The notes beneath the pieces are model-generated. The model was not told the origin of the DNA, ran no database searches, and saw only the letters and a program-made list of their open reading frames with translations. Positions 19,633-62,560 of a DNA stretch of 64,000 nucleotides are shown here, piece after piece. How positions within the stretch are numbered: position 1 is the first letter of the stretch; each line of letters starts with the position of its first letter. The translations under genes were made by a program, and so were the position numbers. The stretch is from Neoscytalidium dimidiatum (Eukaryota; Ascomycota; Dothideomycetes; Botryosphaeriales; Botryosphaeriaceae), in the NCBI GenBank assembly GCA_037367355.1, contig CM074702.1:1-64000 (forward strand), written 5' to 3'.

Positions 19633-19805
19633 CTACCACGTAAGTACAGCCTTAACGGTATAGCAGTTGTGCATGTCGTCGATGGCCTTTTCCCAGCTAT
19701 CTGCGGGGTAGAATTTGGCCATCTTATCGATAGGGAACAGACCCATTCTATATCATGATATCATCTGAGGTAAGAACTCGGCTGGTGGAGCGCCACTCAT
19801 ACACG
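19633..19805 (-). pseudogene. Alcohol dehydrogenase C-terminal relic (ADH half A)
   Basis: On the minus strand the frame reads GAPPAEFLPQMI, a TGA at 19753-19755 where TGG is expected, then YRMGLFPIDKMAKFYPADSW and DDMHNCYTVKAVLTW before a normal stop at 19633-19635. This is the C-terminal end of a zinc-type MDR alcohol dehydrogenase (aryl-alcohol dehydrogenase-like). The rest of the enzyme is missing here. It begins exactly where the dehydrogenase relic at 60981-62073 stops, so the two look like halves of one gene. The premature stop is a C-to-T change at CpA on the plus strand. Confidence 0.75.
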
Positions 19806-19809
19806 GTAA

Positions 19810-20361
19810 CTCTACCCAAACACAGTATCGTTCTCCCGGCTCCCAAGATAGTATGTAGTTTATACAATCGCCCTATACCGGCCCAAGCAGTATCACTAGG
19901 TCCTCATCTAGCATAAAGAAGCTAAATAGGTACGGCGCAGGTTTAGCGGGTGCGCGTAGCGAGAAATTCTCCTTACCGCAGACAGCTTACCAATACTAGA
20001 CTTTCTCATCATACTCGCGCTCAATACCAGCACAGACGTAAGGCGCGGCGAGGAATTCTGCGGACTGGAAGGCTTCGAGGATAGGGTTGGCGCTGAAGTA
20101 GTGCTGCAAAACGAATCTCAGTAGGCTTTCATGGTTTGCTTTGTGGGACGGACGATGTACATCTGGGTGGTGGTGGGTCACAAAGACAGCAGCAAGGTCG
20201 GTGCGGGGTTCAACAGTATGGATCCATGTTAAGATAGATTCAGCGTCTTGTATGAGGAAAGGCGGGTCGATAAGAATCGAGCTTTTTGGCCCGACAATAA
20301 GAGTTGTCACGGAGGATAGACTCTTAACGCTAGAGATGTGGTGGTAGGTTTTAAGAGGCAT
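19810..20361 (-). pseudogene. MBL-fold hydrolase N-terminal relic (MBL half A)
   Basis: It starts at ATG 20361, with FVTHHHPD joined to HYFSANPILEAF after removal of a 57-bp intron (20104-20160), giving the zinc motif HHHPDH. The frame continues to EREYDEKV, where TAG (19996-19998) replaces an expected TGG, then a disturbed intron, APYLFSFFML, VILLGPV and a second TAG (19873-19875) for CAG, then GDCINYIL and ends at VWVE (19810). Both stops are CpA-to-TpA changes. About 13 residues seem lost before VWVE. The C-terminal half is absent here but present at 62152-62560. Confidence 0.75.
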
Positions 20362-20574
20362 ACTGCAAGATAGGATCCAGTCTGGTAGGATGTGTCGTAT
20401 GATATATGGCTACCTCGAGAAAGTATCAAGGCTCGGTCGTGAGGCTGTGCATGAGACAAGGACTTAGTCGTAGAAGTAGTTGAAGAGAACTCGTCTGACC
20501 CCATTCAACGGCAGTGCGAAGTGTTTTGTATCCCTCTTGTGGCACGCTGTAGCCAAATTCGGACCTTGAACAAA

Positions 20575-20970
20575 ACAGCTCCTAAATTGTTCCAACATTT
20601 CCCGGTTGAACTGCCAGATTAAGCGTCGATTTCATGCCACACTCCGGCCAATCTAGCGTAACAACGTTCGGATTCGCTCCTCGATCAAAAAGAAGTCCAA
20701 CGAGGTCGACACGTTCTTCATGGATAGCATTTTGAAGTGGCGACCAGTGACGACTTGTTCCGATCGTGTTTGGATTCATCCCGCTCTAAAACAACAAATG
20801 CACCAGAGTGCTATTCCCTGCCTTCACTGCTGGACGTAGAAATTTTTCTCCAAATGCTTCGACACTAAGAAATTTCTCTGTAGCAGGCTGTGAAGTAGCA
20901 TGTAGTTTCTTTCATCCTCACACAGCTCGACGAGCGCAGTTTCCAGATGGCACAAGAGTTATCATTTGAA
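20575..20970 (-). pseudogene. Ankyrin-repeat protein relic
   Basis: Reading the minus strand, SVEAFGEKFLRPAVKAGNST, LVHLL, a TAG, then SGMNPNTIGTSRHWSPLQNA and LVGLLFDRGANPNV match consecutive ankyrin repeats. An upstream stretch (LVELCEDERNYMLLHSLLQR) is in a different frame, so there is at least one frameshift as well as the stop. No intact start or end is visible. Confidence 0.6.
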
Positions 20971-23040
20971 AGCACCGAAACAAGCAGTTCGAGTAACTGT
21001 AAATGAGAGCTCCTGCACGAAAAGTCGAACCACAATTGCGGTTCAATTGCTTGATGACCTTTGTTGTTTGGTGGCAGGAACTATTCCGTATGGATGCAGA
21101 ATGAAAGACAGCGAGGCAATGCTTCGACAGTGTAGAATAGAGCTTTCATGAGGCCATCTTATCAACCAATCTTGGAGCTTTGACTTCGTCCGTGTCTGAA
21201 CCGTCGCGACACTCTTGGAAGACTCTCTAGATGGCTCTGTCAAGAACCGTTCAGGACCCAATGAACGTGGCATGAGAAGGATGGCTGTTGAGGCAGGTTC
21301 GCGAATTGTCTCAACGAATTCGAGGAAACGTCCCTAAGGCGTGGCAGAGGATACGTGTTCGAGTTCTTCAAAGGTAAACGAGTGCGAACTGCTCGACATG
21401 CTCTACTTTCCAGCGGTCTCCAGAAGTGTTGGGGGGGGCGGTGTACAGATAACCACGGCAACGGATGCATTGAATCTCTCGAGGGAGGCGGTTGCTAGAA
21501 TAAACAGTAGGGGTTTGTGGAGACTGGTACCTTCCAGAAATTTCTCTTTGGGCACTAATATGTCATGCATTCGAACTTCCGAGTCATTTCCTTCTCTTTC
21601 TCGACTCCTCAACTGACTCAGTGGCCACGACTCGCCATTCCTTCGAAGTCAGATTCTTTTTGAATGCCCTTTTTTTGAACGCACGTTCGTATGGGATTTT
21701 GCTACCATCCAATCAGTTAACGCAGTCCATTGAGGGTGTGCAATTCATAGGTACGTTTTCTTGAATTCATGTTGTGTGGCCATAATAGTGGTGAGCTCTT
21801 TCGAGGATTTGTTCTCTTCAAGATATAGACGCGGGATAATCCCCTTGTGAGGTTCCCATCGATCGTCTTCCGCGGGTCTTTTCGGCATGGTATATGTTCT
21901 TGCCAACGGTTGCAAGAAGGCACAAAACAGTTATTCTATAGATAGATTCTTTGAGAACCCGATAGGACAGTTTTGAAGGTGAGGTGGAAGTAGGCCGTAG
22001 GGATGTAACGTGGTATTCGTCTATGTATATAGGCTAAGAAGGCTGACTCCTTGGGTTTATGTGACGCTTGCCTTCGTTCACGCAGCCAATAGCCGTCTCT
22101 GGTAGCTTACATGTAGCGATCTTTCCTCTACCACTTACTGGAAGGCAAGACGGATGCCTCAGCCATCTGGCGATGAGTAGAAAATTCCTGCAATAAGAAG
22201 AAGGCTTACATAAATGTAGATAGGCTCCGCTCAGTAGCACTGGAAACTGTATATCCGGCGTGCTTCGAGGCTCCACTTCTTCACCTAAACTCTATATCTC
22301 TACAGCACAGATCGTGTCGAGGCACAGGTCAATTAGAAGGGCATAATATTTGGTTCCGTTGATGACTTTGCCGCTCAGATCACTGCGCGAACCATAAGCC
22401 GTAATTTTCAGAGGCTCTAGCGGAAGTGGTTTTGAAAACTGGGAACTGGGATGCAGAGAGTGGAGGAATGTTGAGGCAAAGAAAACGAGCCTGATTCACT
22501 TCGAGCACAGGCGAACGTCCGAGATGAACAATAGTACTGAAGAGAAGAGCCACGTGGTGAGTCAAAACGGTTCTCAAAAAGCAACTGGTAGGCACACCCG
22601 AATCGTGGCTCTGTTATTATTATTTTTTTTGACTGCATGCACAGAAGTAGTTGCCATATGGTCGAATACTATTTGTCTTCTTCATTTATCCTCCTTTTAA
22701 ATTTTAGCTCTCGCCTGAGTACGCATCCGCATGTTTTCCTCGTACCCCAAGTCCGCTCAAGTCATTCCTCCCGTTGCTCTTTGGAAGTGGGACCCCACAT
22801 GTCAACCGATGATCAAACTAAGAGTGGTTCGTCCGCGTCCTGGACGCCGTGCTAGGGGAGATCATTCGCCTAGTGGATCATCCGGCTGTTTCATATATGC
22901 ATCGCGAGTAGAACAGTTGATGCGCGCTTTTCATCTGCACAAAATCTATATTCGTATAATTGTGTATATCGGTATAGCCCTTCTATATAAGACTGGCCAA
23001 AGAAGGAAATATGCTAATGCGGTACGAGTGCAGTATTCGC
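20971..23040. other. Intergenic, no gene recognised
   Basis: Only short, unrelated open frames. The part next to 20970 may hold more decayed sequence of the ankyrin gene, but I cannot align it. Confidence 0.4.
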
Positions 23041-24623
23041 TCAAATGCTGTGACCGTGCTGGTTGACCTCCGCAAATGCAGGAGCGGCAGCACGAGGCTC
23101 GATGGGAGCAGCGTAGTCACGGCGAGTGTTGCGGTAGTGGGGGCCGATCTTGACATTGACATCGAGCTGGACGCGCTTGGACTTGGTGGCAGCGCAGGAG
23201 GCCTCGTTGAAGCCCTCGATCTCGGACAGGCAGTACTCCTTGACACCGTTCTGGATGGCAAACAGGTGGCGCCAGTCAAGGCTGTCCTCGGCGAGAGACC
23301 AGGCCATGACATTCTCGACACCAAGAGCCTCGATAATCTCCGGGAACTTCCTATCGATGTGCTCGGGCTCATCCCAGGTCCAGAAGAGGCTGGCATTAAG
23401 GTCGAGGTAGTAGTTGCCGCCGTTCACCTCATCCACAACGGCGCCGGCCTGGGCGTTGACCCAGGATTGGATAGCGGTCAGACCATTGCACTTGCCGTAG
23501 CCTGCCTGGCAGGACAGACCGCAGTGGGCCTCGGTATCACCGCAGTAGCCGCTGGAACTGCAGCAGTAGCCCTCGGGACACTTCTTGCCGGCAGAGGCAC
23601 CGCAGGTACCATCAGTAGCCTCGGTCAGGCTGGTCGGCGGCTGGCTGGCGACGCTGGAAGGCTCGAAGGTCAGAGCACCGGAGAGGCCGTTGTCAGAGCC
23701 ATCGGCGTTCTCGAGAGGCACGGTCTTGCAGGCCTCACCCAGGGGCTGGGTCGCACAGTCGGACTTCGGGTCGATGGTGAAGTACTTGGCGTAGAAGGCG
23801 AAGCCCAGAGTGGCCTTGCAGGGGGGTAGGCCGAGATCGAGATAGCGCTGGATGGACTCCTTGGAGCCGACGAGGTCGGTGTGGTGCTTGGTAAAGTTGT
23901 CTCTCCGGTTCATGAAATCGTATGTCATGATGCCGAACCAGTCGACGAGGGGCACGATCTTGGGCATGGTCTCCGGGGTGAAGGCCATCATGTCGCGCTC
24001 CAGGCCGGGCACGGCGATGGACAGAATCTTATCTTTGCCAATAGCGGCGCGGGTCTCGTTGAGCAGCAGAGGGAAGGCGTCGATCTCCCACACCTTCTCC
24101 GAGTTGGGGACCTGCTTGTAGTCGGCGCCATTACCACCCACGTACTCATAATCGATATCTGATAGTGGCAGGGCACGTGGTCAGCCACTGGGCTCCTGTT
24201 ATGAAGGTTCTTCCCGGCTAGGTCCCTTCTGAGCTTGTTTGCGGAGTTTGACTTACCGATGCCGTCAAGGTTGTACTTGTCGATCAGCTTCTTCGCGTTC
24301 TTAGCGAAGATGGCACGCGAGGTCTCGTCCTTGAGAGTCAAGGTGTAGTTGACGTCGTTCCAGCCACCGATGGCAGCCAGGACCTTGACGCCAGGATCGA
24401 AGCGGGCGCGGAAGGTCTCGACGGGCTCGAAGAGCTCGAAGGAACCGCCCTCCTCGGTGAGGAAGTCGTTGGTAGAGACGAAAGCCATGATGGCGTGGTC
24501 GATGCCGGCGTTGGTGGTGGCGTTGCCCAGGTTGGACAGGTGCCACTCGTCGGCGTACATGATGTAGCGGGCGGAGGCCAGCTGGGCCAGCAGGGCCGCG
24601 GCGGCGGTGGAGATGAGCTTCAT
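23041..24623 (-). CDS. Secreted GH18 chitinase with internal CBM18
   Basis: Endo-acting family 18 glycoside hydrolase of 494 residues, exons 24623-24257 and 24158-23041 (98-bp intron). The signal peptide ends near residue 18 (LLAQLASA). The catalytic DGIDIDYE motif (residues 120-127, acid E127) is assembled across the intron. A hevein-type chitin-binding module (CBM18: CGASAGKKCPEGYCCSSSGY, then further cysteines) follows about two thirds along. After it the barrel resumes with NYYLDLNASLFWTWD and VMAWSLAEDSLDW, so the module is inserted in the catalytic domain rather than added to an end. A ~45-residue basic/proline-containing tail follows. Substrate is chitin; use in wall remodelling, nutrition or attack on other fungi cannot be separated. 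Confidence 0.9.
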
Positions 24624-26395
24624 GGCGCAAGAGTGCTTGATGCAGAGCCAGCGGGCGAGTGAGGGAGTGACTTCAAATAAGGGAAATTAACGAAAGTCAG
24701 GAAGCTGTTAAGTTTTTGAGATAAAGAAAGACTGCTGGCGCTCCCACGCGTTCGGCGGCGGATGGAGGTCAGGCGGAAGGGAGAGGGTGCTCGGGAAAGA
24801 CATGGCGGCGCAGATGATTGGAATTTATTGTGCGTGGTGGGTGTGTCAGTCGACGGGCAAGCTTGAGGGTGAAGCTTGCTGGGAGGCTCATCAAAGGGGA
24901 TGGCCGGTCGAGTCAGTGCGTCCCCGCAGAAGGTGTTGTTTCGGGGGTGGCGGTGGCATAGGCTGGCATAGGCTGGCATTGGCATCGCGACGCTGCCCAA
25001 TCGCAGCGATGGCGGCGAGTCAAAAGCAGGCAGAGAGACTCGAAGGCCAGACAGAGGACAGAGGCCCTCGGGCCACACAAGCAGACGCCGGCCGGCAACA
25101 ACCCATCAGCCGCCGCAACCTTCGTCCTTTTCCTTAACCTCCGCATCATGCCTGCTCCGCTGCCTTGTGCGCCGCCGCGCTTTAGCAGCCGCCGCCTCCC
25201 TGCACGACTGCGCATGCTGCATGCCGCACTCCGCATGAATGAGCAGCGGTTCTGCCGGCCCTCGTCCGCTGCGAACCGATGGCAGGGCTGCCGTTTCATG
25301 CGCAGGACGCTCGTTGACTCGAGAAACGGGTTGGCCAGGCGTCCCGGCTGTTCCGGTCGCCCATCTTACTCCCCAATCTTCCCTCCAAAGCACGCCTCCC
25401 AAGACCGTGCCACTGGACCACGAGCGACCACCGACCCGAAGTTAAGATTTCTCCAAGCCCGCCCTCTGAAACCTCGACCAGCAGCACCATCGCCTGGCCC
25501 GCGGCCCTGTGCCTGTCGGCTCAATACTACCGCGAATACTACCGCGCGCGTTATAGACTATACTGGACCTCATGCTTCGGGAAGGTCAGGTCAGGTCAGG
25601 TCGCTTCATCGGCCAGCTAAGCAGACGCGCCCGGGCAAAAAGAAAGGTCAACACGAGCACGCGCCGACTCAGAATTAAGGGAAGTTCCGCTACGAGGCTT
25701 TTTGCCGTTCCCCGTCGCTCTCCAATAATTACGCACGAACGAGCAGGAGCAAGCGCTGAGCTTGACGCTCCCAAGCAAAATATCTTACTGTATGACGGAG
25801 ACGGACCGTTCCCATGATTCGATCACCTCGCCCGTGACGAATGATGTGCCGCGACCCCCCTCCGTACCTGGCTTGGCCTCCAATATAGCAACTCGATCTG
25901 CCGCCTCCCATCCCCGCTGGTACCCGCGCGTTTCCACCTTATTTCCCCTTCGCTCCCCCTCCTCGTGTGCTCAGGGAAAGCGGTTACGCGGCCTGCTCTT
26001 CTAGTGGGTAGCGCCCGCCAAGCAGGGACAAGACCTTCGAGAAAACACGATGGTGAACGGATTCAGGCACTTGTTAAATATATCGTTTCATCGTGACTCA
26101 GGACGCCAAACTCTAAAATACCCGGTGTATAATGTGCCAGGTCGACTTTCCAACAAAACGCCCCTGACCTAGGAGGGCCGGAGGCCGAAAAAAAAAAAGG
26201 TATGTATGTACAGTACAAGTTCAGACCAGGCCTTCCGCGTTCGCTCTCTTTCCCACTGCCAATCGCTAACTAACAAGGAGCGTGAACGTTCTTCTCCGCG
26301 CATGCCGACAACAATATAAACTCTAAAGATGAACTGCGAAAAGAGACAAGAGGGACAGGTTCAGCCAAACGCCGCCGCCGCCGCCGCCGCCGCCC
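24624..26395. other. Intergenic upstream of chitinase
   Basis: GC-rich DNA without a recognised gene. It holds (AGGTC)4 at 25583-25602 and (GCC)8 at 26371-26394, the latter directly after the peroxidase stop codon. Confidence 0.45.
26371..26394. repeat. (GCC)8 microsatellite
   Basis: Eight uninterrupted GCC units immediately 3' of the peroxidase stop. The stop overlaps the sequence AGGTAAGG, which also resembles a splice donor, so a further 3' exon beyond the repeat cannot be fully excluded. Confidence 0.8.
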
Positions 26396-27480
26396 TTACC
26401 TCGCGCGATCGTTGATGGGCGCGCCCCTAATGTCCCTCTTGGCGCTGGTGCCCTTGGGCAGGGCGGCGGTGCAGTCGGCGAAGTTCTTGTACGTGGCCTC
26501 GGGCACGCCCAGCAGGCTGAGGCGGAACATGGCGTCGGCGAACTTGCCGGTCCACTTGCCCTGGTTGTTGACGAAGCCGTTGAACTCCTTGCCGACCGCC
26601 TTGGTCCTGTCGGACAGGTTGACGTCCGAGTCGAAGCGGGCCACGCCGGCGGGCGGGCTGTACGTCTCGGCGTAGTACTTGACGTCCCACCGGCCGGGCG
26701 TGCTGTCCTGCGGCGCGCCGACGGGGATCTGCGTCTGCGCCAGGTTCCTCGACGTCGAGTGCGCGCCGATCAGCGCCGCCAGGTCGGCCGCGCTGAAGCC
26801 CTTGTCCACGAACAGGTTGAGCAGGCTGTCGTGGCCGCTGCCGGGGCCGAAGCCCGGCGGCATCACGCCCGTCGGCGACGGGCTGGTGCTGTCGCCGCGC
26901 CCGACCAGCATCTTGACCGTGGGGCCGCCCGGGCAGGTGACGATGGCGTGGTTGCCCGCGAACTGGATCAGGTCCGCCGCGCCCACGCCTTGGCCCTTGT
27001 ACGTGTTGTACTTGCCGGTGATGTACCTGTGGTAGTCCTGCAGCCCGTTGTTCTCGGGCCGCTCGATCTCCGAGGGCACCAGCAGGAGCGAGCCGTCGGC
27101 GCCGCCCGAGGCGGGTGCCACGGTGGGGAGCTTCTTCGAAAAAGTGCCAGCGTCGTGGAACTGGTGGCGAAACGTCAGTTATCAGTTTCCCCCATGCGAT
27201 GCTCAAGATTGTGCCTGCTTACGGCGTAGCGGATGGCGGCGCGCGCCATGTCGGTGCATTCGCCATTGGCGAGGAAGTCGTTGGTCAGGTCGGACGAGAT
27301 GGTGGTCCAGACGGCCGGGCAGGCGGGGGTTTTACGCGCAGAGAGAATGCTGCGCGGGTTCAGATTGCCAAGAGCCCGGTAGGTGATGTCATGCAGGGTG
27401 CTCGGAAAGGAGTCAAGGGAGGATAGAGAGATGGCGGACGCGCCGCATGCGGAAAGGAGGACGTATGGAGAGGTACGCAT
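26396..27480 (-). CDS. Secreted class II haem peroxidase (ligninase-like, AA2)
   Basis: Fungal class II peroxidase of 340 residues, exons 27480-27223 and 27160-26396 (62-bp intron). The N-terminus MRTSPYVLLSACGASAISL is a probable signal peptide. The distal site RYAFHDAG (R84, H88) is joined across the intron, and proximal H220 lies in LIGAHSTSR. CPGGPTVKMLVGRGD matches the strand after the distal domain. Such enzymes oxidise phenolics, Mn2+ or aromatic compounds with H2O2; whether an Mn site or surface tryptophan is present needs alignment. The neighbour at 29142-31225 is an H2O2-producing type of oxidoreductase on the same strand. A TATA-like element lies 131 bp upstream. Confidence 0.88.
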
Positions 27481-27610
27481 GATGATTGGCTGTTCGAGGC
27501 CTGCTGATGGATGCTGCTCTCTCGGTCGTACAAAAATAAATGATGAGGGAGTAGCAAGCTCGTGGAACCTGATGCTGGAGAGTGACACCAAAAGCAAGAC
27601 AGCCAGCGGC

Positions 27611-27622
27611 TTTATATATATA
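27611..27622 (-). promoter_or_regulatory. TATA-like element of peroxidase gene
   Basis: GTATATATATAAA on the minus strand, about 131 bp upstream of the peroxidase start codon, a typical core promoter distance. Confidence 0.45.
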
Positions 27623-29141
27623 CTTCCACGAGGGCGACGTCTCGGAGGAAAGCGTGTGTAGAGCATCTGCGCTGCTGGAACTTGACTGCGCCCGCCCGCC
27701 ACAACCTGCCGCCTCCAGCACCAGACTCTCAGGCCAGACGACCATCTAGCAGGCCGCGGACTCAGCTGGATTGACGCCGCGCGCGAGCCGGCGCGAGAAA
27801 CGGTCTGGACGGGCACAAGTCAGCGTCCGCCGTTGGGAGATGTTGGCACACTGCAGAAAGTACCGGAGCACCGACAGTCTGATGGCTTGATGGCTTGATG
27901 GCGTTGATTGCCAGCGCGGTGTCTTGGCAGAGGAGCTTCGCGCACGATTGAACGCTGTCGACTCAGCCTTGCTTGCCCGATCAGGCATGTCAGCCATGTG
28001 CTAGACCCTTGCGATCCGCGCGACCGTGTACTTCCCGCAGGTCCAGCTTCAGGCGTGCCGACAGCAGACCGGTGAATGCAGGCCGGCAGCCTTGGCACTA
28101 TGGGTGATTGGCGTTGCGGCACGTCGTGGAGAGTACCCCGCGAAACAGTGGTGGGGCGGAGCGGAGTCGAGGGAGTTCCTGCGCAGTCTAAAAGAACGGT
28201 AGTAGATAACTAGGCTCCGCGGGGCTGAGGTGGAGATCCGGGTCGGCGTGGTGGCGCTGGTGCGGCTGAATCGTTCGCGATGCGCATCGGCACGTGAGAC
28301 TTCCTCACAGAGTAATCGAGATAGCCGAAGGGGAAAGCTGGGAGAGGCGCCTTTCGGGAAATTCCCGCCTTCTTGGCACGCTATCCAAGCTCCAGCCCGC
28401 AATCTTGTCCCCAGCCCGGCTGGCACATGGGTTCCAGACTCTGCCCGTGGTCCGACTTTCCAGCCGGATGTTTCTGGGCGATGCTGGGAGCCGGGTAGCT
28501 GCCATGTCCCGCTGGCACGGCTGCACTGCCACGAGGGAAGACCCATAGCCGGCTTTCTCGGATGAGTAGCTATTGAATTCGCCGACAGGAGGACTTCGAA
28601 ATCGACTGCTCGTTAACGTGGGGAATATGCGGAGGAGGGTGAGGTCAGGTGGAGGTGGCGGTGGAGGGGGCAGAGAGCTGTGTCAAGCTCGTCAATGCGC
28701 ACTCTATTTTTACCCCGACACGTTGGTCAGCAGAAGCCGTATGGTGGAACAGCATCCCGGATACCAGGTCGCAGGAGGTGCAGGAACGGCGCGCATTGCA
28801 CGTATCCGCCGGAACGCCTCTCAGCCACAGCTGGCCTGCAGCCCAATCGCAACCTTTGCACGCTCAACACTAGGCTCGCTGACTCAACAGTAATCGCTCT
28901 AAATTGTTCTCGCCTAGAGGAGGCTTCTTTGGTGCCTACTCCATAGCTCAATTTGCGTCTGCCTACCGGGCAGTGTGAAGTGTGGGGGTATTTTCCGATC
29001 CCGCCGTCTAATGGTCTATCCCAGTCTATATACGCTCGAAACTATCCCAAAACCAGAAAAAGGGAAAGAGGTCGCAATGCCTCTCTGCAGCCAAGCATCC
29101 AACTCGCGGCTTGGCTGGCTGAAACTAAGAAAACTTATTGC
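27623..29141. other. Intergenic between peroxidase and GMC gene
   Basis: No gene seen. A run of G pairs and a G5 tract at 28648-28670 (ggtggaggtggcggtggaggg and onward) could form a G-quadruplex on the plus strand. Confidence 0.4.
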
Positions 29142-35854
<6,713 letters not shown>

Positions 35855-43002: not shown

Positions 43003-43049
43003 ATGTCTTGATGCTGGCTAACAGTATTGTTGAGTTAGAGTGTATAGCT

Positions 43050-50898: not shown

Positions 50899-50955
<57 letters not shown>

Positions 50956-50976
50956 TCTCTTCCAACATCTTCCACC
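50682..50976. promoter_or_regulatory. Divergent promoter of MOD5 and CAF16-type genes
   Basis: 295 bp contain all upstream sequence of both genes. A 48-bp CT tract (50901-50948) sits 28 bp before the CAF16-type start codon; seen from MOD5 it is a GA tract. A (CCG)n run lies at about 50827-50849. Confidence 0.6.
50901..50948. repeat. (CT)24 microsatellite
   Basis: Twenty-four uninterrupted CT units, continuing into an imperfect CT-rich leader up to the start codon at 50977. Such tracts are common in fungal core promoters and 5' leaders and are length-variable. Confidence 0.95.
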
Positions 50977-51898: not shown

Positions 51899-52344
51899 TG
51901 TATGGCGTAATCTCCTTTGTGCTTGTTTGTCTGTTTTCGAATCTGGGTTTGGGACACGGAAAAAAAGACAAGACCGGACTTCAACACGGTCAGGCTTCAA
52001 CGCCACCTATGCATGCATTGGGAACGGAGTTGGTGCTTCCACAGCAAGATACCATGGGATCGAGATTTAACACGAGAAAAGATACATTCAATTCCTTTTT
52101 TTTTCACTTTCCCTTGGCTGCAACGGCTGCAGAAACCCTTGCCAAGCCGCTTCCAATGCGTGTAGTCGTATATGCTGCCAAGTGACACTCTAAAGGAAGC
52201 TATAACCGTTGCGCTCTGCATGGTGGTGGACGCCCGTGGCATGACGTTTGAGGTGAACTGCCAGCTCACTAGACAAAAGAGAGACTGCGCGAAGCCCCTT
52301 CCAGAGCACGTTCAGCCCCCAAGAAGGCCAAAAAGAAGCGATAT

Positions 52345-52458
52345 TGCTACGGATGCGGTTCGAACGCATGCACATTTCTGTAGCAGAGTACAAGAGAAAG
52401 CTCCTGAGGAGTCCAGATTGACTTAAATCTGCCGCCTTAACCACTCGGCCACCGTAGC
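52345..52458 (-). tRNA. tRNA-Leu (anticodon TAA) with intron
   Basis: On the minus strand the acceptor stem GCTACGG (52458-52452) pairs perfectly with CCGTAGC (52352-52346), followed by discriminator A. The D arm is GGCCGAGTGGTTAAGGC, anticodon loop TTTAAG, and T arm ATGCG-TTCGAAC-CGCAT. The anticodon stem closes only if about 33 nt (roughly 52421-52389) are removed after position 37; the intron segment AATCTG can pair with the anticodon region, as in other spliced tRNAs. A 13-nt variable arm fits leucine. The GTTCGAA and TGGCCGAGTGG boxes are the internal promoter. Confidence 0.92.
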
Positions 52459-53512
52459 GATTTGAAGCTCTTTTGGCGCATTGCAAGACTTATGACAGTT
52501 GCTTCGCCGGAATCTGGTTCCCAGGAGGGTCAATTGCAACGGTGAGGCCCACCTGAGCAGCGATCGGTAGCATGCGATTCAAGTCGAGAGGCGCACGCAA
52601 CTGCTGCTGGAAGATGTAAGCTGGTGAGAGGCAAGCAGGCGAGGAGGTTGTGTGTGAAGGGTGCAAGGATTGCGCTGGGGACGAAGCGAGAGGAGGAAAA
52701 AAATCTTGATCGAGTTAAGGGAGACACGTGATTGGCGCTCCGCGTCTGCGTTCAGACGCTCTTCAAACAGCGTATGCCTGTCGCCGAAACACATGGTTTC
52801 GGGTGGTTGAGGAGCCGCTGCTGACGCCCTCGCCATGCTCGTCGATGGTAAGCCCTCTAGCTTTGCCCTGGGAGGCAGTGCGGGCGCGGAGGGCGGGGTT
52901 GAGTCGCATCGCGTACACCGCTCCGCACCTGTTGCACTGCTCAGGCGCACGGCATGCAAGCGCGGTCAGCTTGCTCTGGCTCCATCCCGCGTGCGCGGTC
53001 GGTGGGCCTCCAGGCTATGCCCCGATCAAACACGCCCGGCGCTGCAGTGCTCTGCCCACGCCAGGCCATGCTAAGCCTACGCTAACTTAAGCATACAAGA
53101 CCGCGAATTGCACCCTGCGGAGCCTGAGAATTCGCCGATCCAGCTGCAGTAGCGCCGTTTCACCGTCCACTGAGGCAGTGAGGCCGCACCGGCGGCGTTC
53201 GTGAGAGCGTGGCGGAGTCATCGCTGCGCGCCATAACCCTGCCTGAAAGGGCCTTAGCCCATCCTTCATGCATACGGCCCCCAATATGACGGCCGCCCGT
53301 GCTGAGCGCGCGGCTGAGGGTTAAAGGTAAGCTGGACCTGCCCTGAACACCCAATCTCTCCACCCAACTCCATCATCAAGCAAGACCCAAAACCACGGCC
53401 CTAAGCGGGCAGCCTCACCCACCATCTTCTTACCACGCCAAACAACCTATCATCAACACCTTCACGTTGGCAAATCACACTCTCGGCCAGCTTCCCACCG
53501 TGTTCCCGCAAC

Positions 53513-53872
53513 ATGCTCTCCAGTAGGGGGCCCGACCTCGGTGTCACCCGGGGTGGTAGTTGGCGACATGACTGCGGTTCGGTAGCTCGAAGACCGCTCG
53601 GCAGAGCTGGTCTCGAGCGCCGCGCCGGTCGCGACGAGTTACATTCAAAAATTCAATATCAAGAACATGATTGTTGTGCAATCCACGACGACGAAGAGAG
53701 GGGAGGACCCAACGCCGCCGCCGATGTCTCGATGATGGAGATGATGATGAACACCGACTGTCAGTCCCGCCGCCATGCCCCCGCCTCCGCCTCCGCCGCC
53801 TGCATCGAATTTGCTCTGCCCCTCTGCTTTTCCAGCAGCAAGAGCCGATGCAGCACCGTGGACTTAGGATGA
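53513..53872 (+). CDS. Possible small unassigned ORF
   Basis: 119 codons from the ATG at 53513. Support comes only from the 150 bp before it, which is a C/A-rich pyrimidine-biased leader like those before expressed fungal genes. The protein is Ala/Arg/Ser-rich with a methionine cluster (SMMEMMMN) and no family resemblance. It could be the first exon of something larger or a chance frame. Confidence 0.2.
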   Translation: MLSSRGPDLGVTRGGSWRHDCGSVARRPLGRAGLERRAGRDELHSKIQYQEHDCCAIHDDEERGGPNAAADVSMMEMMMNTDCQSRRHAPASASAACIEFALPLCFSSSKSRCSTVDLG

Positions 53873-54261
53873 GGGAGACAAGCCAGTTTGGGCCTGGCCA
53901 TGACCGGATGGTCTCGGGTTGCTGTTGCCGGATACCCTTGCAACACAGCACTGGAGCCAAGACGGAAAATTTTTAAACACACTACCTATCAATTTTCTGA
54001 CAAAGAGTGGGATAAGAGGAAATTCGAGAACGTGGAGGAGGATCAGAGGGAAGCAAGAGGAGGACTACCTTCGATGCGATTCGGACGGTCCATCGATCGA
54101 GCGAACATCCCGGCGTTTGGGAGGAAGGGCGGGGAAGCAAACAAGGCCACGTCTCGTGTGTCTTTTCCGCCAGTCGTTGTTGTTGTTGGACTCCACACAC
54201 ACACACACATCGGACGCGGTCTAGCCAGTGTGTTGGGCTTGCCGCTGTTCTACATTCACAT

Positions 54262-54293
<32 letters not shown>

Positions 54294-54852
54294 TATGCCG
54301 TCACTGATCACCCACGCTTCTACGTGTGGGCAGCTCGCCGGGTGAATCATACACACCGCCACTACTGTTCTCCAGAGCCCGCAGCTGGCCGAAGGGGGCC
54401 TGGAACACCTTGGTAATCGTTTTCAGGATTCACGATCGGAGCATCTTGGCGTTAATTTTTTGGGATGCTGCTCCACCTGTTTTCTCCCCCCGAATTTGAC
54501 TTTGCGATCTTCACCAGTATGGTCAAATGCTGGAGCCGGACCTTGGGTATCAGCCGCCTCTGGCACCACTGATGGGCGTAGTCCTCCTCTTGTAGTCTTA
54601 CCTCCATGTCCTTAGTCTTCCCACGTAATTCTTTGTCAGAATTGAACATTCCTCGTCTGCATTACGTATTGCTTCTGATTTGTGTGCTGCATCATCTCGG
54701 CTTTGCAACGACAACAATTCCTTTTACCTGCAACTGGTCTTTCAGGTCCGCTATCGAACGGCAACACGCTAATCCGAATACCACACCCTCAACCCAGGAA
54801 CGTCAATAAAATCCCTCCGCCACTAGCACCGCAAAACGTTGCGTCAACTATT

Positions 54853-54854
<2 letters not shown>

Positions 54855-54886
<32 letters not shown>
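54855..54886. repeat. (AT)16 microsatellite
   Basis: 32 bp of uninterrupted AT alternation in intergenic DNA. Confidence 0.9.
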
Positions 54887-54888
<2 letters not shown>

Positions 54889-55681
54889 CGTCAACGCACT
54901 TGCCTGGCGCAAGAGCTTGAGGAAGGAAAAGCAGACGCCATACTTCATTCAGCCTGTACCGACGTCTGATGTAAACGCAGCTTACCCCAATCTTACAGGA
55001 CTGTTGCGTGTATCTACAATAAGTGTCAACTATATTGTAAGTCTCATCCGCTCTCGAACACCGGTGGTGCCAGAATGAAAACTCGGTCGAGATACAGTCA
55101 TGGTTGTCTCAGTTCTGCTAACGAGTGAAAAAGATGCATCGTAGACCTTGACTCAACTTTCGCGGAGGCCTTTTTCTTTTCCATCACATGAGATTTGATA
55201 TCGGAAGCCTTGTTGTCCGCATCACGCACTAGGTTTTCAACAATATTGTAGAACACCCCACCTCTGGTTTGTTGAAGCAGATGGCATCGAAGTAGCCCGC
55301 AACAGAGACTAACTTGCTCGTAGTTGAAGAGTTGACGTGACGTTCTATGCAATCTGTGTTTCTCATTGTTTGAGTCAGACCCTACTGTGCAGTCGGGATC
55401 ATTTGCCCGTGATTAATGTCACCGTTTTCTTCATTGCTTACAGATATTCGTCAGCCCAATTATGCAGTGCCGACTCGAGGGCTGCACCAAATGCGAGTGG
55501 GTGTTCATGAAGGTACGATATGTTAATAGCCGCGTGTTCATTGGTCGGCGGGTTGAAATACCAGCATTAGGTTAACCTTTTCTGGCTCAGAACAGGGGTA
55601 ATTTCTCATCTAGCTTGCCTACTTAATGCTCAATGTATGAGGCGTCTGAAAAGTTCAACTCTTGGTCATAGGTGTTTCAGT

Positions 55682-57751
55682 TTAGTCGTCTCCTTTTTCG
55701 TTCTCTCCCTGCTCCTTCTGCTGCTCCAACTCAGTTGGTGGTGAGTCTGGTTCGCTCGCCGTCGCCCTACCCTCCTCGACATCTGTATCACTGACAGTAC
55801 TGAGGTCTCTCTCACGCATCTGCCTCGCTAAAGCTTCCGCTTGAGCGGAATACTTACACCGCGCACGCACGCCATATCCATATTTGTAGAAAAGCCAGGG
55901 GAATGGCAGACACATTAACGACAGGAATGCCGCAAGCGAAGATGCCCAGTGGGTTCCTGATGCCAACATAGATGGGGTGAACTCGTTAGCTGGTGATTTT
56001 ATCTTTGGTTCTACGAGTTCCGAGTGGCTTACCCAGTTCGTGGTACATCTGCGCAGTGAACAATGGGAATGCCGCCCCGAACAGCGACCGCAGGACGGAG
56101 CTGCCTGCCATCACCGACGCCGCGAACACGCTGTATGAGTCAATCAGGTAGTTAATCGTGCTCATGAAGACCAGCACCATGCCGAACCCGAATGGAATGC
56201 CGGCAGCGACGCTCGCCGGCCAAGGCACCGAGGGCCCGCAAGCCCAGGAAAACCAGAAAAGCCCTATAGGCAGCGCGAAGCCACCGACAATGCACGCTGG
56301 TAGACGTTTCTCTGGAGGCGCGTGGTCGCCGCTTCTCCGCACGGCGCGGAGGTAGCGTTTATTGTCGTAGCAGACGTTGTAAATCACCGATATGGCCATT
56401 CCGATCGCGACGGCGAGGAAAGGCAGACCGGCTACACCTTGTGTCCAGTGCCGGTGCTCTTGGTAAACCACGGGGAAAGCGCCGAATAGCATATATAGGA
56501 TCCCGTAGACTATTGCAAGGTAGAGGCTCATGAGGAGGACGATGGGCTCGAGTAGAAGCAACACCCACGGCCGCAGCATGTTGGTCTGAAGAACCTGTCG
56601 GAACGTGATTTTGCCTCTCTCGTGATCGAATTTACTGCGGTAGTCCTTGCCTGTTATCTGTGAGAGTTTCTCCGCGCGTTTACGAAGGAGGACGGGAGCA
56701 TACGTCTCGGGGACAGCGAGGCTACCGATGAGCCACATGGTTCCAGAGAAAACGGCCATCAATCCTTCAATCCACTTCCACGATGTAGCCGCGCCAAGGA
56801 AGCCGCCGGCAACAGGGCCGAGAACTGTGCAAGTGGTCAATAAATTGGGTTTGCTCAGCATACTGGAAGCATTTACCTGGACCCATAAAAGGGGCGACAC
56901 TGAACAAGCAAAGAGCGATGCCACGCTCTTTGGCTTCAAAAATATCTGCTACCACCGCACCGGCATTTGTTAATGCCGAAGATCCGAAGGATCCCGCAAA
57001 AAATCGAAGTACAAGAATAGTTTCGATATTTCGTGCCCCTATTGTTCCGGCGTTGAATGCAGTGAAAGCGCCAAAGGATAGGAAAAATATGATTTGCCTT
57101 CCATACATCTCACTTAGAGGTGCCCTTAACAGTAAAGTCAGACACTACGGGCGTGTGTTGGTGGGAATAGTTTACTCACCATAACAAAGGGCCTATCGCA
57201 AATCCCACAACGAAAAGACTAAGGCCGGCAACTGCCAGCTCACGGCTGACTCCGAACTCCTGTATAAGGTCCCGAATTCCTGTACGAGCCTTTAAAACCT
57301 ATGCTACGGCATATGTACGTATAGAGAAGAACGAAGAGGAGGTGATGGTGGCGGTAGGTAAGGGTAGTACCTCCAGAATATGCGGACGAACAAAAAGACA
57401 CAGAGAGAGCGCCGAATGCAGCAGTAACTGTGAGCATCCACTTGTACCACTTGCTCCAGTTCTGCGGGTTCGTAGGATCGTGATCGCTCCATTCGACCAA
57501 GTACGGGTCCAGATCTGTGCCTCCACCCGAGTATTCTGAGTTGAGGACTCTAGGAGTGACCAAGGCCTGATCAACCAGGAGCCTCCAATGTGATATGACC
57601 GATGCTCGCTCTACGCCTGTATGTGCTGCGCCCATTGTCACGATAGGTATTTTTGGATCATTCAATACTCACCCTCAAGATTTGTGCTGCATCTATCTTC
57701 TTGAACTGTATGGTTCACGTTCGGCCGCGGACTCGGAGTCCAATGCTGCAT
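55682..57751 (-). CDS. MFS multidrug transporter (DHA1, 12-TM class)
   Basis: 579 residues in six exons: 57751-57673, 57616-57371, 57279-57180, 57124-56877, 56824-56033 and 55956-55682. The first exon is chosen because a strong GTGAGT donor at 57672 and an acceptor at 57617 join MQHWTPSPRPN...NLEG in frame to VERASVISHW; the alternative start is ATG 57635, inside that intron. DHDPTNPQNWSKWYKWMLTV precedes helix 1. APLSEMYGRQIIFFLSFGAF is the loop 2-3 motif, and GPVLGPVAGGFLG the antiporter motif of helix 5. The tail is acidic. Drug:H+ antiporters of this group export diverse compounds. The neighbouring dehydrogenases are decayed, so the original partner pathway may be lost. Confidence 0.87.
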
Positions 57752-58799
57752 TTTTGCCGATGATAGTATTGGCGATAGATATAAGCCAGGTTAACAATGA
57801 GGAGGATGAAAGAGTTTCCACCGTGAATCAGCTTATCTTCTGCCGTCGGACTTCCAGCTCGAGCGCGCGCGCCTCGCCCAACTGCCGATCAGCGTAACCA
57901 ACAAGTATGGCTGTAAGGTCGTCGCCTTGGCGCGCAGTCAAATTTCTTGGCTCCAGCCACTGCGGGGTTGATCTTATGTTCTATTTGATGAACTGCTACC
58001 TCTGCCTCGTATTCTCTTGGAAATCTGTGGCTCGGCCGAGGTTCCTTCCTTCGCCCGCGGTTTTACTACAGCCGTTCTCCTATAAGGAATATTTGAAATC
58101 ATTCTTTTCTCCACAGCTTATCTCCGTTAACCGATAGCCGTTAGCCGGAATCGACCGCCAAGCTACCTCAGCATTGCCAATGCTCCGTTACAACTATACT
58201 CATTATATCCTAGGCTACTATCACTCGGGCGTCCTGCTCGCGGAAGGCTTATAGATCCGTACCGGGCGCGCATAGGCTTGCCGACCATCGCGTAGCAAGT
58301 AGCCGAGCTCATTAAAAAAGTTCAACAGACCTCTTATCAGTTCGGCCGCAGCATTAACCAGATCGTTACTGGAGGTTGATTTAACTTTAATATTGCTAGC
58401 GCTCTGAGGTGAGGCTGAAGCTTAAAAAGCTGTAAGTATAACTTCAATGTATGCAGCTTTTCTTTTTCTGAGCTCGCGTTTGCTATCTCTGCTTCTAGCG
58501 ATTTCTAGCCTGCTAAAGCACTAACATATATACATGACCTGCTTTAGCCATTCTCAAAACAATGTTGAACTAAAAATTAGGCGATTCGTAAAGTATAACA
58601 GGAAACGTCGACTGTGTCCTCCGCCTATGTTTACACGCTGTCACCGCCACTTAAGTATTGAGCGCTGTGTTGTCCAAATCATCAGAATATATCACATCAT
58701 AATACCGTTGTGAGCAAAGATAATGCAGCGTATACAAACTATCATATATGTAATGCAAGTAGTATCTCCAAATTGATAGAGACCCGAGGCCTGATGTGG
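57752..58799. other. Intergenic
   Basis: No gene recognised. The stretch 58100-58560 has a mildly repeat-like, AT-leaning character but no clear RIP signature. Confidence 0.4.
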
Positions 58800-60187
58800 T
58801 CAAGGTGATTTTTTCATGAAACGGGGTTTGCGTATTGCAAAAAGTCTTCAGTCCTTCGATACCCCATTCAACCCCAATACCGCTCTCCTTGTGACCGCCA
58901 AAAAGAGCATTTAGATCCAGCCATAGGTGATTTGTTTATCCATACATTCCCAGCATCGAGCTGCCTTCCAATTCTTTCAGCCTGATCCAGGTCATTCGAC
59001 CAGACGCTGGCGCCTAGACCCATCTTAGTATTGTTTGCCCGACTAATAACCTCCTCTTCATAACTCCATTTAAGCATCGGAACGATCAGAGCAAAAGGCT
59101 CCTCCGTAGCGATGCGAGTTGAGTCAGCTGGATTGTCGATAATGGTTGGCGTAATGAAGTCACCATCCTTTCGATCAAACTTGCCACCAATGGCAGTACG
59201 CAAGTGCTGAGCTTCTTCCAGAAACCCCTTCACAAGCCTGTACTGCATCTTATTTTGCACTGGACCCAGGAACGTGCCTTCTTTATCGCCGTTACCGATG
59301 ATCAATGTCTCCGTGTATCCGATGCATGATTTCAGAATTTTATCGCAGACTTTCTCACGCACGTTTATACGCTTAATAGCCACACAGATCTGGCCCGAGT
59401 TTGGGAAGGCAAGCGCAACAACGTTCGCAGCGGCGGTAGAAATATAAATATTCTCACAGATTATAGCCGGGTACTTACCACCAAGGTAAAGGGCAACGCG
59501 TTCAAGGGTCTTAGATGCAGACTCCATAACCCTCTTGCTAGTGACTGTAGAACCAGTAAAGCTAATCTTCGCCGGAATTGGGTGAGCAATCAACCAGGGA
59601 CCAAGATTATCATCACCTGAAAGACATTGCACAACGCCGGGAGGGAAAGAGCGCAGGGCGAGCTCAACGAGCTTAAGATTGCAGTAAGGCGTAAATGGCG
59701 AGGACTTTACTATAATAGGATTGCCATTTATAAGCGAAGGACCTATTTTGCTAATTGCCAAGGAAACTGGGAAGTTACATGGGACGATTGCTGCTACCAC
59801 ACCCAAAGGAGGGGGGGGTGCAGCGTAAGATGGTCTTTTTCTGGTCGTGCTTTGCAACAGTTTCTTCCTGAAGCCGCATATTTGCAAAGGTGGTGAGGAA
59901 CGTGTAAGCGGATTCAATTTCTTAAATAGAGACAAAGAGCTGGACAACATTATGTCAGCGCGGCGCTTCTCTCTATTGAACTACTTTACAGCTTATATAC
60001 GCACAGGCTTCCCTTGATCCTTGGCGAGTAGCTGCGCAAATTCGTCTCTATATTCCAGGATGGCCTGCGCATCGGCGGTGAGAGCTTTGCCCCATTCCTC
60101 AAAAGAAGGTTTGCTCCATGTCTGGAAGGCCTTTTGAGCAGCTTCCGCAGCGATGTCAACATTGGTAGGCATGGAGACAGACATCAT
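58800..60187 (-). pseudogene. Aldehyde dehydrogenase pseudogene
   Basis: From ATG 60187, VDIAAEAAQKAFQTWSKPSF and QLLAKDQGKP match the N-terminus of NAD(P) aldehyde dehydrogenases, then a stop near 59993. The frame resumes at PLGVVAAIVPCNFPVSLAIS, KISFTGSTVTSKRVM, LYLGGKYPAIIC and FPNSGQICVAIKRI. The catalytic cysteine is kept (GQIC), but the general-base glutamate of the LELGG motif is a tyrosine (LYLGG). Near 58930 the frame shifts; the true ending (FGGHKESGIGVEWGIEGLK, CNTQT) continues in another frame to about 58815. The gene would not give an active enzyme. It lies between a transporter and an alcohol dehydrogenase relic, a typical catabolic grouping. Confidence 0.85.
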
Positions 60188-60980
60188 AGAGAGGCTCAGG
60201 ACCACAGTATCTTAACTAATACTGCTAAGAAATCCGTGACGATGGTTGATGATGAATCCGGGAGTAGCGCATGGGTGACTCGAGTAATGCGCCGTGGCTG
60301 TTGCCGAGGTTCGGGGTCGGCATTCCTTCGACGAAACCAAGCCCTGCCATTTACTGCGGGGAACCCAGAAGCTCTAGACCCTGGATTGCGGGTTTCTTCG
60401 TTCCGTGTCGGCTATGAGAGTCAGGGCCACCTCGGAGATCTGAACGCCTATGTGAGCACAACGTTAGTACATAGGTCGGCCAGACGAGTTTGCCCGCCCC
60501 CTACCTTCGAAATGACACACTTTTCCTTCACAAGTAACAGCTGGTTAACAGAAAGCAGCCATCAAACTGTAAAAGGTAAAACGTGCCAAGTCAGAGATTG
60601 GGGTGTGGACAGGCTGGGCTGACCAACCTCAGTGGAATGCCTCTTGGCACACGCCTTTGAGGCTGGTTTGGGAATTCTCCATGAAACAACATGTCATGAC
60701 TAACATTCACCCTCATAGGCCAGGGAAATGCGAAGAAAAAGCTCTGCTGGTATATCAGGCAGGCGTACATCGGGTGGTCGGAGCAGGTACAAGGCGTAGA
60801 GAAGGAATGGCAAAAAGCGAAACGGTCCAACAGTCACATGGCATGCTGCTGGTATTGTTGTTAGGCTCTTGACTACCTGGCTCGACTTGTTGCCAGTAAA
60901 AAGAGCGACAAGATTGACCAGGAAAAAAAATTGATAGATTGTACCTTCATTCAACTCTCCTGCCCACAGAGCACCTGAGC
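60188..60980. other. Intergenic between decayed dehydrogenase genes
   Basis: This would have been the divergent promoter of the aldehyde and alcohol dehydrogenase genes. No site stands out. Confidence 0.4.
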
Positions 60981-62073
60981 GTGTCTGCAGCCTGAGCAAT
61001 CGTCCCTCGCGCACCGCTTTCCGAGGGCGGATCGGCCATGGAGACCTTGCACTTACGAGAGATTGCGGACGATGAATTGGTGGTTAGGATCGTGGGGTCT
61101 GGCGTCTGCCACACGGACTCCGTGATTCTGGGAAGTCTGAAAGAAGGCATGGGCAGTATCTATCCCTCCGTCAAGGGGCACGAAGGCAATGAAGAATATT
61201 CACTGATCAGATAGGGTCGTTAGGAGCTTGTATCTTACTGCTGGCTATCGTAAGTGCCGGGTATTGTTGAAAAAATCTGCTCGATTGTATCTATCGCTGT
61301 GGTTGGCGATCCTGTCTTGCTTTCATTTGCTCTCTGCAAAGAATGCCGCACATGCGAATCCGGGCACATTAACAATCGCATGAAATTCCATGCCCTGAAT
61401 TGGTCCAGCAGCATTTGCTTCTCCTCTGCAGCATAAGACATACAAAATGTTCATGGAGGATTCTTCAGCCAGTCAAGCTTTGCAAGCAGGACAAACGTCA
61501 AAGAAAACTCAGTGTCAACGTCAAGGATATGGTTGAACACGACGAACTTAGGCTGCTCGCGCCATTATGATGCGGCATCCTGACAAGATGTGGTACAGTC
61601 ATCAATGTGGTGCAGGCAGGACCACAGGATGTGGTTGCCATCCTGGGTCTCAGTGGCGTTGGCCTTTGCGACTATGGTTCGATCTATTCTTGTTACTGTG
61701 GATGACGCACTCTACTAATAGCTACCAGGTTGCTAAAACGAGAGGTTGTAAGACAATCATTGACATTGACCAGAAACAATCGGGTTGGGATTTTGCAAAG
61801 GAAATGGGTGCGACACGTACTGTTAACACTACAAACCTAGAGAACCTGGGTAGCATTGTCTCCACTACAAAGGCTCTCACTGCCGGGCACGGTACTACCA
61901 TCACAATCGATAAAACAGGCTTCGTGCCTCTGATACGGAATGCTCTGGACTTCACTGGACCTAAGGAGAAAATCATCCAGGTCGGAAATAATTCAAGCGA
62001 AGCCGCAATTACTATACCATTGGATGATTTGATAGTGGGTGGGAAGCGGTACATCGGCGCTTTGATGGTGGGT
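60981..62073 (+). pseudogene. Alcohol dehydrogenase N-terminal and cofactor-domain relic (ADH half B)
   Basis: Zinc-type MDR alcohol dehydrogenase pieces in order: AIVPRAPLSEGGSAM after a TGA, LVVRIVGSGVCHTD with the catalytic-zinc cysteine, PSVKGHEG, then a frame change to VGDPVLLSFALCKECRTCES (only part of the structural-zinc cysteines), GTVINVVQAGPQDVVAILGL with SGVG, and VAKTRGCKTIIDIDQ with GATRTVNTT. It ends at GGKRYIGALMVG near 62073. Several stops and frameshifts are present. The missing C-terminus is what lies at 19633-19805. Confidence 0.8.
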
Positions 62074-62151
62074 TCTATTTTCTCTTCTTACGCTGACAGA
62101 CAGAAAAAGAGGAGAGAGGAAGGAAAAAGATGCAGATACAGTTACAAAGCG

Positions 62152-62560
62152 GAAGAAATTGAAACGCCGGCTCCCCACGCTGCGTGGTTGAGCACACTGA
62201 ACCTAATCGAGTCGTTGAATCCAGCTACTAGGTCATTCCAGACCATATCGACAAGGGCTGGGAGTTCGGTGAGAGTATTGAGCACAGTCGCAAATACTTG
62301 AAGTTTGTCAAGAAGAAAATCCAGCAAGCGCAGAGAAAGCCTCCTGTAGACGGAATCTACAAGACGTTTGAAGATGCGTTTCCAGATGTGGGAAATAATT
62401 CAGACTTCTTCCTCAGTCATTTGTCAAACTAATTTGGGGATGGTGGCGAAATCTGGGAGGAGAATAAGCACCATGGAATTGCAGAAAAGAACAGCGAGGA
62501 TTTGGAGGGTTGGGGTTTCCACCGCCAAACGCACGAGGTGGGGGTCCTTTCTGCTCAGAA
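62152..62560 (+). pseudogene. MBL-fold hydrolase C-terminal relic (MBL half B)
   Basis: Starts at EEIETPAPHAAWLSTLNLIE (62152). After a one-base frameshift near 62235 it goes on as VIPDHIDKGWEF (normally IIPGH), then HSRKYLKFVKKKI, FEDAFPDVGNNSDFFLSHLS and, after TAA at 62430-62432 in place of CAA, FGDGGEIWEENKHH. This is the C-terminal half of an MBL hydrolase of the same subfamily as the relic at 19810-20361, which ends at VWVE where this one begins. About 80 bp of A/G-rich sequence (62073-62151) separate it from the dehydrogenase part. Confidence 0.7.

Follow-up and report, generated by a model that had tools for sequence, protein, structure and literature searches.

The shuffled gene order (mesosynteny) described for filamentous ascomycetes is attributed to intrachromosomal inversions (PMC3219968, PMC3516569), and simple repeats are reported to be over-represented within 500 bp of the breakpoints in closely related pairs (PMC3516569). 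For the pair Leptosphaeria maculans-L. biglobosa, 30 inversions are given, which range in size from 1.3 to 355 kb with a median of 9.5 kb, and transposable elements are said to border 70% of the inversions within Lmb chromosomes (PMC4210507). A larger case is the PCR-confirmed inversion of >530 kb on chromosome 8 that distinguishes the S and L morphotypes of Aspergillus flavus; its two ends in the L morphotype are placed in a fused PKS gene and in a cutinase gene (PMC6288828). Inversions are an ordinary change in fungi, and fungal cases with breakpoints in genes are already known. To our knowledge, a single genome seldom allows the breakpoints of an inversion to be read at base level.

We describe a locus in a 43.76-Mb genome of fungal gene content, at the start of contig 8, whose first 64 kb form the window referred to below. 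One inversion of ~42.26 kb very probably split two genes there, for an alcohol dehydrogenase (ADH) and an MBL-fold hydrolase (MBL), and exchanged their 3' ends. A literature search found no published account of the locus, which does not establish that it is unpublished. Like the mesosynteny inversions, this one would have changed order and orientation while keeping gene content on the chromosome; those were, as presented, inferred by whole-genome comparison, whereas this one is read from cut genes in a single genome (PMC3219968, PMC3516569). Its 42 kb falls within the size range given for Leptosphaeria (PMC4210507). With the A. flavus inversion it shares breakpoints in genes and, perhaps, in metabolic gene clusters, but the A. 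flavus inversion is about twelve times larger, varies between morphotypes of one species, and comes in the published description with no reciprocal pair of decayed halves (PMC6288828).

Two genes with exchanged ends

The features on which the reading rests are the following.

19633..19800, minus strand: ADH relic, 3' part, (M)SGAPPAEF...VLTW plus terminal TAG (tblastn, stops)
19801..19808, no strand: left junction (MBL 5' part, then ADH 3' part); extra ~8-10 nt (read from the sequence)
19809..20361, minus strand (runs 20361->19809): MBL relic, 5' part, ends VWVE (tblastn, DNA match, in-frame stops)
60981 (approximate)..62067, plus strand: ADH relic, zinc-type, 5' part, ends GKRYIGALM (tblastn, PF00107, stops)
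62068..62148, no strand: right junction (ADH 5' part, then MBL 3' part); extra 81 nt, partly purine-rich
62149..62513 (end approximate), plus strand: MBL relic, 3' part, AEEIETP...EDLEGW (tblastn, DNA match, stop)
19809..62067, no strand: putative inverted segment, ~42.26 kb, deduced from the reciprocal gene halves

A first-pass annotation had reported these four gene pieces and proposed a ~42-kb inversion with its breakpoints in the two genes. All four pieces were recovered in the same places and on the same strands by direct reading and by tblastn over the whole window, with intact paralogues in the same genome as reference; the other tblastn HSPs in the window had E of 0.13 to 9.8 and were taken as chance. 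At each junction the beginning of one gene runs into the end of its counterpart, and the two junctions lie on opposite strands. The complementary halves, swapped ends and opposite strands support the proposed inversion. Before it, the intact ADH would have been a minus-strand gene at 19.8 kb and the intact MBL a plus-strand gene at 62.1 kb. Read from one genome, the inversion is well supported, short of proof; from that genome we also infer the direction of the change and that it was a single event.

The intact MBL paralogue common to both halves at the DNA level lies at C8:2,195,778-2,196,776 (2.196 Mb). The 5' part corresponds to its residues 1-162 (tblastn, E 2.8e-73), extended to 177 by eye, and the 3' part to residues 176-201 and 203-298 (tblastn, E 2.2e-42), with DNA identities of 73-74% and 68%, respectively. 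The two halves are alike in dN versus the paralogue (0.176 and 0.199) and in third-position GC (0.53 and 0.56), and in both of them third-position changes are in excess (86/139 and 66/110). The low dN includes the paralogue's own branch and is therefore silent on when constraint ended. The tested MBL relic pieces matched no Pfam model; we identify the relic by its paralogue, which matches PF00753 (73.4 bits), and by the recognisable GT..AG intron that the 5' part keeps, at an identical position in relic and paralogue, between HHPD and HYFSAN (both by eye). Three in-frame stops (TAG, TAA, TAG) interrupt the 5' part, which has also lost ~12 codons internally, just upstream of its end; the 3' part has a frameshift near 62226-62232, one TAA and a two-codon deletion.

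For ADH, the closest own-genome paralogue of both halves is at C6:117 kb, and the runner-up, on C1, is also common to both; divergence is too great for a finer same-gene comparison. The 5' part matches residues 1-171, 172-255 and 223-338 of the C6 paralogue by tblastn, and to 340 by eye, and the 3' part matches residues 344-393 (tblastn, 62% identity, E 4.6e-18), and from 341 by eye. The 5' part hits PF00107 above cut-off (57.8 bits) and PF08240 at 16.9 bits, under its cut-off of 23.5; the 39-residue ADH tail alone had no Pfam match, and its nearest non-self match in the genome is again the C6 paralogue (64%). The relic begins at ~60981, with GTG at the paralogue's ATG start, and the ATG at 61038 that starts the listed ORF falls within the homologous region; frame changes and internal stops follow. 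The 3' part opens at 19800 with ATG AGT GGC GCT, contains one internal TGA and reaches its terminal TAG at 19633. Disabling changes are therefore present in 4/4 gene pieces. The two genes might have become pseudogenes even before the break.

Aligned to the intact own-genome paralogues, the halves of each gene abut, overlapping by two codons in MBL and by one in ADH, so the expectation that they would meet without substantial overlap held. If each breakpoint is free to fall anywhere in its gene, and strand and order are left out, the chance of complementarity within three codons in both genes is ~(7/393) x (7/305) = 4e-4 by hand arithmetic. A possible objection is that the pieces are unrelated fragments from two independent events, reciprocal in appearance only. 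Contig-end regions often gather gene fragments, and decay has gone far in the ADH 5' part. Set against this are the complementarity, which holds to within two codons for ADH and MBL alike (tblastn and reading by eye), and the closest paralogue common to the halves of each gene, with MBL halves that match in divergence and agree in third-position GC. The halves thus do not come from clearly different paralogues, and we regard the unrelated-fragments explanation as very improbable.

Breakpoints and their proposed repair

No inverted repeat of at least 25 nt links the breakpoints (14-nt seeds), and the 3.2- and 3.7-kb breakpoint surroundings had no non-self genome match except the MBL paralogue. 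The longest word common to the 501 and 571 bp around the breakpoints is 9 nt in either orientation, which is the shuffled level (mean 8.9, maximum 14, 200 shuffles). An origin via inverted repeats or transposons gained no support, as we found no sequence present in inverted orientation at the two breakpoints; this differs from the transposable-element borders reported for Leptosphaeria, since here the only second genomic copy that we found of anything around the breakpoints is the MBL paralogue (PMC4210507). Tandem Repeats Finder at score >=50 gave 16 rows, all of them more than 500 bp from the breakpoints at 19.8 and 62.1 kb. Compared with the simple-repeat enrichment reported near breakpoints, the nearest called tandem arrays are >5 kb off, although the right insert is partly a purine-rich tract (PMC3516569); this 81-nt insert might be flagged by a simple-repeat masker.

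Because we found neither a second copy of the flanks nor an inverted repeat linking them, end joining fits better than repeat recombination. Two double-strand breaks, one in ADH and one in MBL, would have been rejoined by end joining with short sequence added, ~8-10 nt at the left and 81 nt at the right; the function of both genes would have been lost at the inversion, and both would have decayed afterwards. RIP was rejected as the cause of the decay, since extreme values occur in the first 4 kb only and the breakpoint bins are ordinary. With both breakpoints in genes, each junction records the break site, the added sequence and the later gene decay, and both cut points are readable almost to the base. 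Since neither end yielded a copy of a repeat or transposon, simple end joining is favoured here over the explanations by repeats and transposons that have been offered for other fungi.

Both chimeric junctions would also be yielded by a tandem of ADH and MBL on one strand, from which a loop was excised, leaving ADH5'-MBL3', while the MBL5'-ADH3' DNA was reinserted ~40 kb off in reversed orientation. This route needs a reinsertion and no fewer than two extra breakpoints, where the inversion takes two breaks only, and we consider it unlikely. Still less likely is an assembly error in which the 42-kb block was given the wrong orientation. The junctions are known from the assembly alone, but a misjoin would leave neither the stops, frameshifts and deletions seen across all four pieces nor the extra sequence at both junctions, and we found no inverted repeats at the breakpoints that could have misled an assembler.

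We looked for a source of the right insert. Positions 62066-62160 had no non-self genome match at E <= 0.001, its longest exact words that recur elsewhere in the window measure 12 nt, and AGTTAC, present in both junction inserts, is reached by 0.115 of 20,000 shuffles and is not significant; templated filler thus gained no support. The insert starts with GTGGGT and contains GCTGACA, but reading by eye found no 3' splice site that continues the frame into the left ADH piece, and we did not adopt the reading of it as an ADH intron.

The hexamer GGCGCT, which the first-pass annotation had pointed out, does occur at both junctions (62056-62061, plus strand; 19794-19789, minus strand). It has no value as support for the inversion, nor did we accept it as repair homology, because both copies are ADH Gly-Ala codons (in GALM and SGAPP) and thus not homology shared by ADH and MBL. 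If the ADH pieces adjoin at the ATG, the copies are 15 nt apart, start to start.

Genes within and beside the putative inverted segment

Two further genes lie close to the junctions.

18049..19315, minus strand: second MBL-type (lactonase-like) gene, MBL2 (motif SHWHCDHVG, read from the sequence)
58871..60205, minus strand: aldehyde dehydrogenase (ALDH) gene (PF00171, 288.5 bits; N-terminal exon 36.8 bits)

MBL2 lies just past the ADH tail and is a gene distinct from the MBL relic. Neither of its tested ORFs matched Pfam; from the motif SHWHCDHVG we take it to be lactonase-like. The ALDH main exon is open over 370 codons, and the gene and the 5' part of ADH are divergent neighbours standing head to head, now ~0.8 kb apart.

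When the inversion is undone, ADH, its divergent neighbour ALDH and a transporter gene adjoin the lactonase-like, BVMO-like and CYP505-like genes, and the genes so brought together are perhaps a split catabolic cluster. The inversion would then have parted ADH, ALDH and the transporter from an oxidative catabolic cluster of CYP505-like, BVMO-like and lactonase-like genes. A more specific proposal, which we offer only tentatively and think rather doubtful, is that the inversion, through end joining of staggered breaks, broke up a working cluster near the chromosome end for the oxidative breakdown of a ketone- or lactone-forming compound. The cluster members would be the CYP505-like hydroxylase, BVMO, lactonase, ADH, ALDH and transporter; the staggered breaks would be visible in the one or two codons that each gene repeats across the junctions, together with the added sequence. 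If this were true, the cluster left at 4-19 kb and the ALDH and transporter moved to 56-60 kb would make a datable natural experiment in pathway loss.

Searching the own genome with the CYP505-like, BVMO-like, MBL2 and ALDH proteins (114/167 candidates scored for the CYP505-like search), we found no second place where these four occur together, and the functional argument therefore stands without a paralogous example. The closest relatives of the ALDH, BVMO-like, CYP505-like and MBL2 proteins are scattered over separate contigs or widely spaced (C7 1.6 Mb, C1 0.6 Mb, C8 2.9 Mb, C1 2.6 Mb); that of MBL2 (43%) is on C1.

Among the selected ORFs of the putative segment, a HET match was weak and below cut-off, and Pfam matches include GH18 chitinase, peroxidase, GMC oxidoreductase, TauD, MFS and ALDH genes. 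The segment also holds genes for a spermidine synthase, an IPP transferase (MOD5-like) and an ABC protein (CAF16-like), for which Pfam supports the families only, the names MOD5 and CAF16 being those of the first-pass annotation.

Reciprocal halves of two genes

The first-pass annotation described swapped halves of an MBL-fold hydrolase gene (MBL) and an alcohol dehydrogenase gene (ADH) and read them as marking an inversion; translation of both regions and paralogue searches bear out the halves. Our reference queries were intact paralogues from the same genome, spliced by eye (MBL, 305 residues, contig 8 (C8) at 2.196 Mb; ADH, 393 residues, contig 6 (C6) at 117 kb), both searched against the whole window, where the remaining matches had E values of at least 0.13.

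Gene pieces and junctions, with paralogue residues matched and damage
20361-19819, minus: MBL 5' part, residues 1-162 (E 2.8e-73), continuing by eye to VWVE, residue 177; three in-frame stops and a loss of ~12 codons directly before VWVE
19801-19808/10: left junction, ~8-10 nt between halves
19785-19636, minus: ADH 3' part, residues 344-393 (E 4.6e-18); one TGA, own terminal TAG in place
60981-62064, plus: ADH 5' part, residues 1-171, 172-255 and 223-338 (E 4.3e-54 and 6.3e-28); GTG at the paralogue ATG position; one TGA five codons into the first block and another in the third; frame changes, possibly introns in part
62068-62148: right junction, 81 nt between halves
62149-62513, plus: MBL 3' part, residues 176-201 and 203-298 (E 2.2e-42); a frameshift, a TAA and a deletion of two codons

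Set against these intact homologues, the halves overlap by two codons in MBL and one in ADH. At the MBL break, VWAEEIETP in the paralogue corresponds to VWVE at the end of the left piece and AEEIETP at the start of the right. At the ADH break the paralogue has YIGAVEGDVVPAKYVPQMI (19 residues), which corresponds to YIGALM at the end of the right piece followed by (M)SGAPPAEFLPQMI in the left; the two add up to 19 residues and share nothing but the Met codon. The inversion, inferred from one genome, is highly probable, being well supported by these complementary pieces. A possible objection is that the 42-kb inversion was created by misassembly, but this is unlikely because all four pieces carry damage.

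The halves might instead have come from different paralogues, and the comparisons speak against this. The MBL left piece matches C8:2,196,235-2,196,472 and 2,196,573-2,196,776 (74 and 73% DNA identity) and the right piece C8:2,195,778-2,196,146 (68%). These stretches lie next to each other in a single gene and were the sole non-self matches reported for the 3.2- and 3.7-kb queries. Codon comparison, excluding codons opposite relic stops (three left, one right), gapped columns and residues 163-175, gave dN of 0.176 (left, 159 codons) and 0.199 (right, 119 codons). Third-position GC is 0.53 and 0.56 in the relic and 0.89 and 0.87 in the paralogue, and third positions account for 86 of 139 and 66 of 110 differences; dS is not usable owing to near-saturation of synonymous sites (pS 0.72 and 0.82). 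This agreement indicates that the MBL halves share one history, and the low dN, which includes the paralogue's own branch, that most of their divergence arose under constraint. The two ADH halves likewise have a common nearest relative, at C6:117 kb (5' part 39%, tail 64%), and a common next relative, at 2.05 Mb of contig 1. The ADH 5'-part query, an open frame running through the right junction, also matched the MBL paralogue (81%, 27 residues) because it includes MBL sequence. The MBL paralogue is itself an open frame on the same contig (G000:C8:2195778-2196806, locus L018).

Probable repair at the breakpoints

No inverted repeat of at least 25 nt (14-nt seeds) joins the breakpoints; their flanks have no non-self match in the genome except the MBL paralogue, and no tandem array scoring at least 50 lies within 500 bp of either, the right insert itself being partly purine-rich. 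The longest word common to the two breakpoint neighbourhoods (501 and 571 bp), in either orientation, is 9 nt (200 shuffles: mean 8.9, maximum 14), and the right insert has no second genomic copy at E <= 0.001. The most likely repair is therefore end joining in which sequence was added. Both junctions carry short duplicated stretches of the genes, which would be compatible with staggered breaks, but the decay of the pieces weakens this argument. The hexamer GGCGCT does occur twice, as had been noticed, because the ADH gene codes Gly-Ala twice within 21 nt; both copies are ADH codons and do not mark homology between ADH and MBL.

Mesosynteny in filamentous ascomycetes has been proposed to result from frequent inversions within chromosomes (PMC3219968, PMC3516569). 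Other reports describe 30 inversions of 1.3-355 kb in a Leptosphaeria comparison, 70% of the Lmb ones bordered by transposable elements (PMC4210507), a >530-kb inversion in Aspergillus flavus whose breakpoints lie within PKS and cutinase genes (PMC6288828), and, for Sphaerulina musiva, the authors' judgement that breakpoints play no major part in gene gain or loss (PMC12778737). The present inversion is of the same kind; its two breakpoints disrupt genes, and neither was found to have a repeat or transposon copy.

Gene order with the proposed inversion undone

Order after undoing the inversion on paper, counted from the contig end
4.3-7.4 kb, minus: CYP505-like, P450 and reductase ORFs
9.0-9.5 kb, plus: SDR
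10.0-11.7 kb, minus: BVMO-like
12.7-13.4 kb, plus: MFS
15.3-16.2 kb, plus: ORF without Pfam match
18.0-19.3 kb, minus: MBL2, a second, lactonase-like MBL-type gene
then, restored: ADH (minus), aldehyde dehydrogenase (ALDH, plus), MFS (plus)

The CYP505 label comes from the first-pass annotation. The best solved relatives of the BVMO-like protein include cyclohexanone, steroid and phenylacetone monooxygenases, and ALDH and the ADH 5' part still stand head to head, ~0.8 kb apart. One known scheme for breaking down ketones and alkanes combines hydroxylation, Baeyer-Villiger oxidation, lactone opening, and alcohol and aldehyde oxidation. The restored genes may be such a set, split by the inversion; this we only infer, because searches with four of them found no second genomic place grouping these genes.

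Contig end and neighbouring features

The genome comprises 43.76 Mb in 40 contigs, contig 8 being 3.06 Mb and the window its bases 1-64000. Its gene content, which includes genes with introns, a fungal rhodopsin domain scoring above the cut-off and a P450 joined to a reductase, points to a filamentous fungus. The first 4 kb are AT-rich: two bins there have GC of 0.28 and 0.20 and a (CpA+TpG)/(ApC+GpT) index of 0.02 and 0.00; positions 1-4100, nearly without CpA/TpG, resemble heavily RIP-mutated repeats. This stretch holds a 387-nt inverted repeat (2589-2975 / 3236-3622, 84%) and a 147-bp tandem repeat (8-326); a scan of the window found no TTAGGG or CCCTAA in two or more tandem copies. An Rfam tRNA match (52345-52458, minus strand, 47 bits) is 114 nt long and perhaps contains an intron; ARAGORN, using the bacterial code, reported no tRNA. 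Beside the left junction, a short minus-strand ORF (20582-20779) encodes NAIHEERVDLVGLLFDRGANPNVV, which may resemble ankyrin repeats and is possibly a further gene relic. A further match to a zinc-type ADH, interrupted by a TAA, lies just right of the window (G000:C8:69472-69921).
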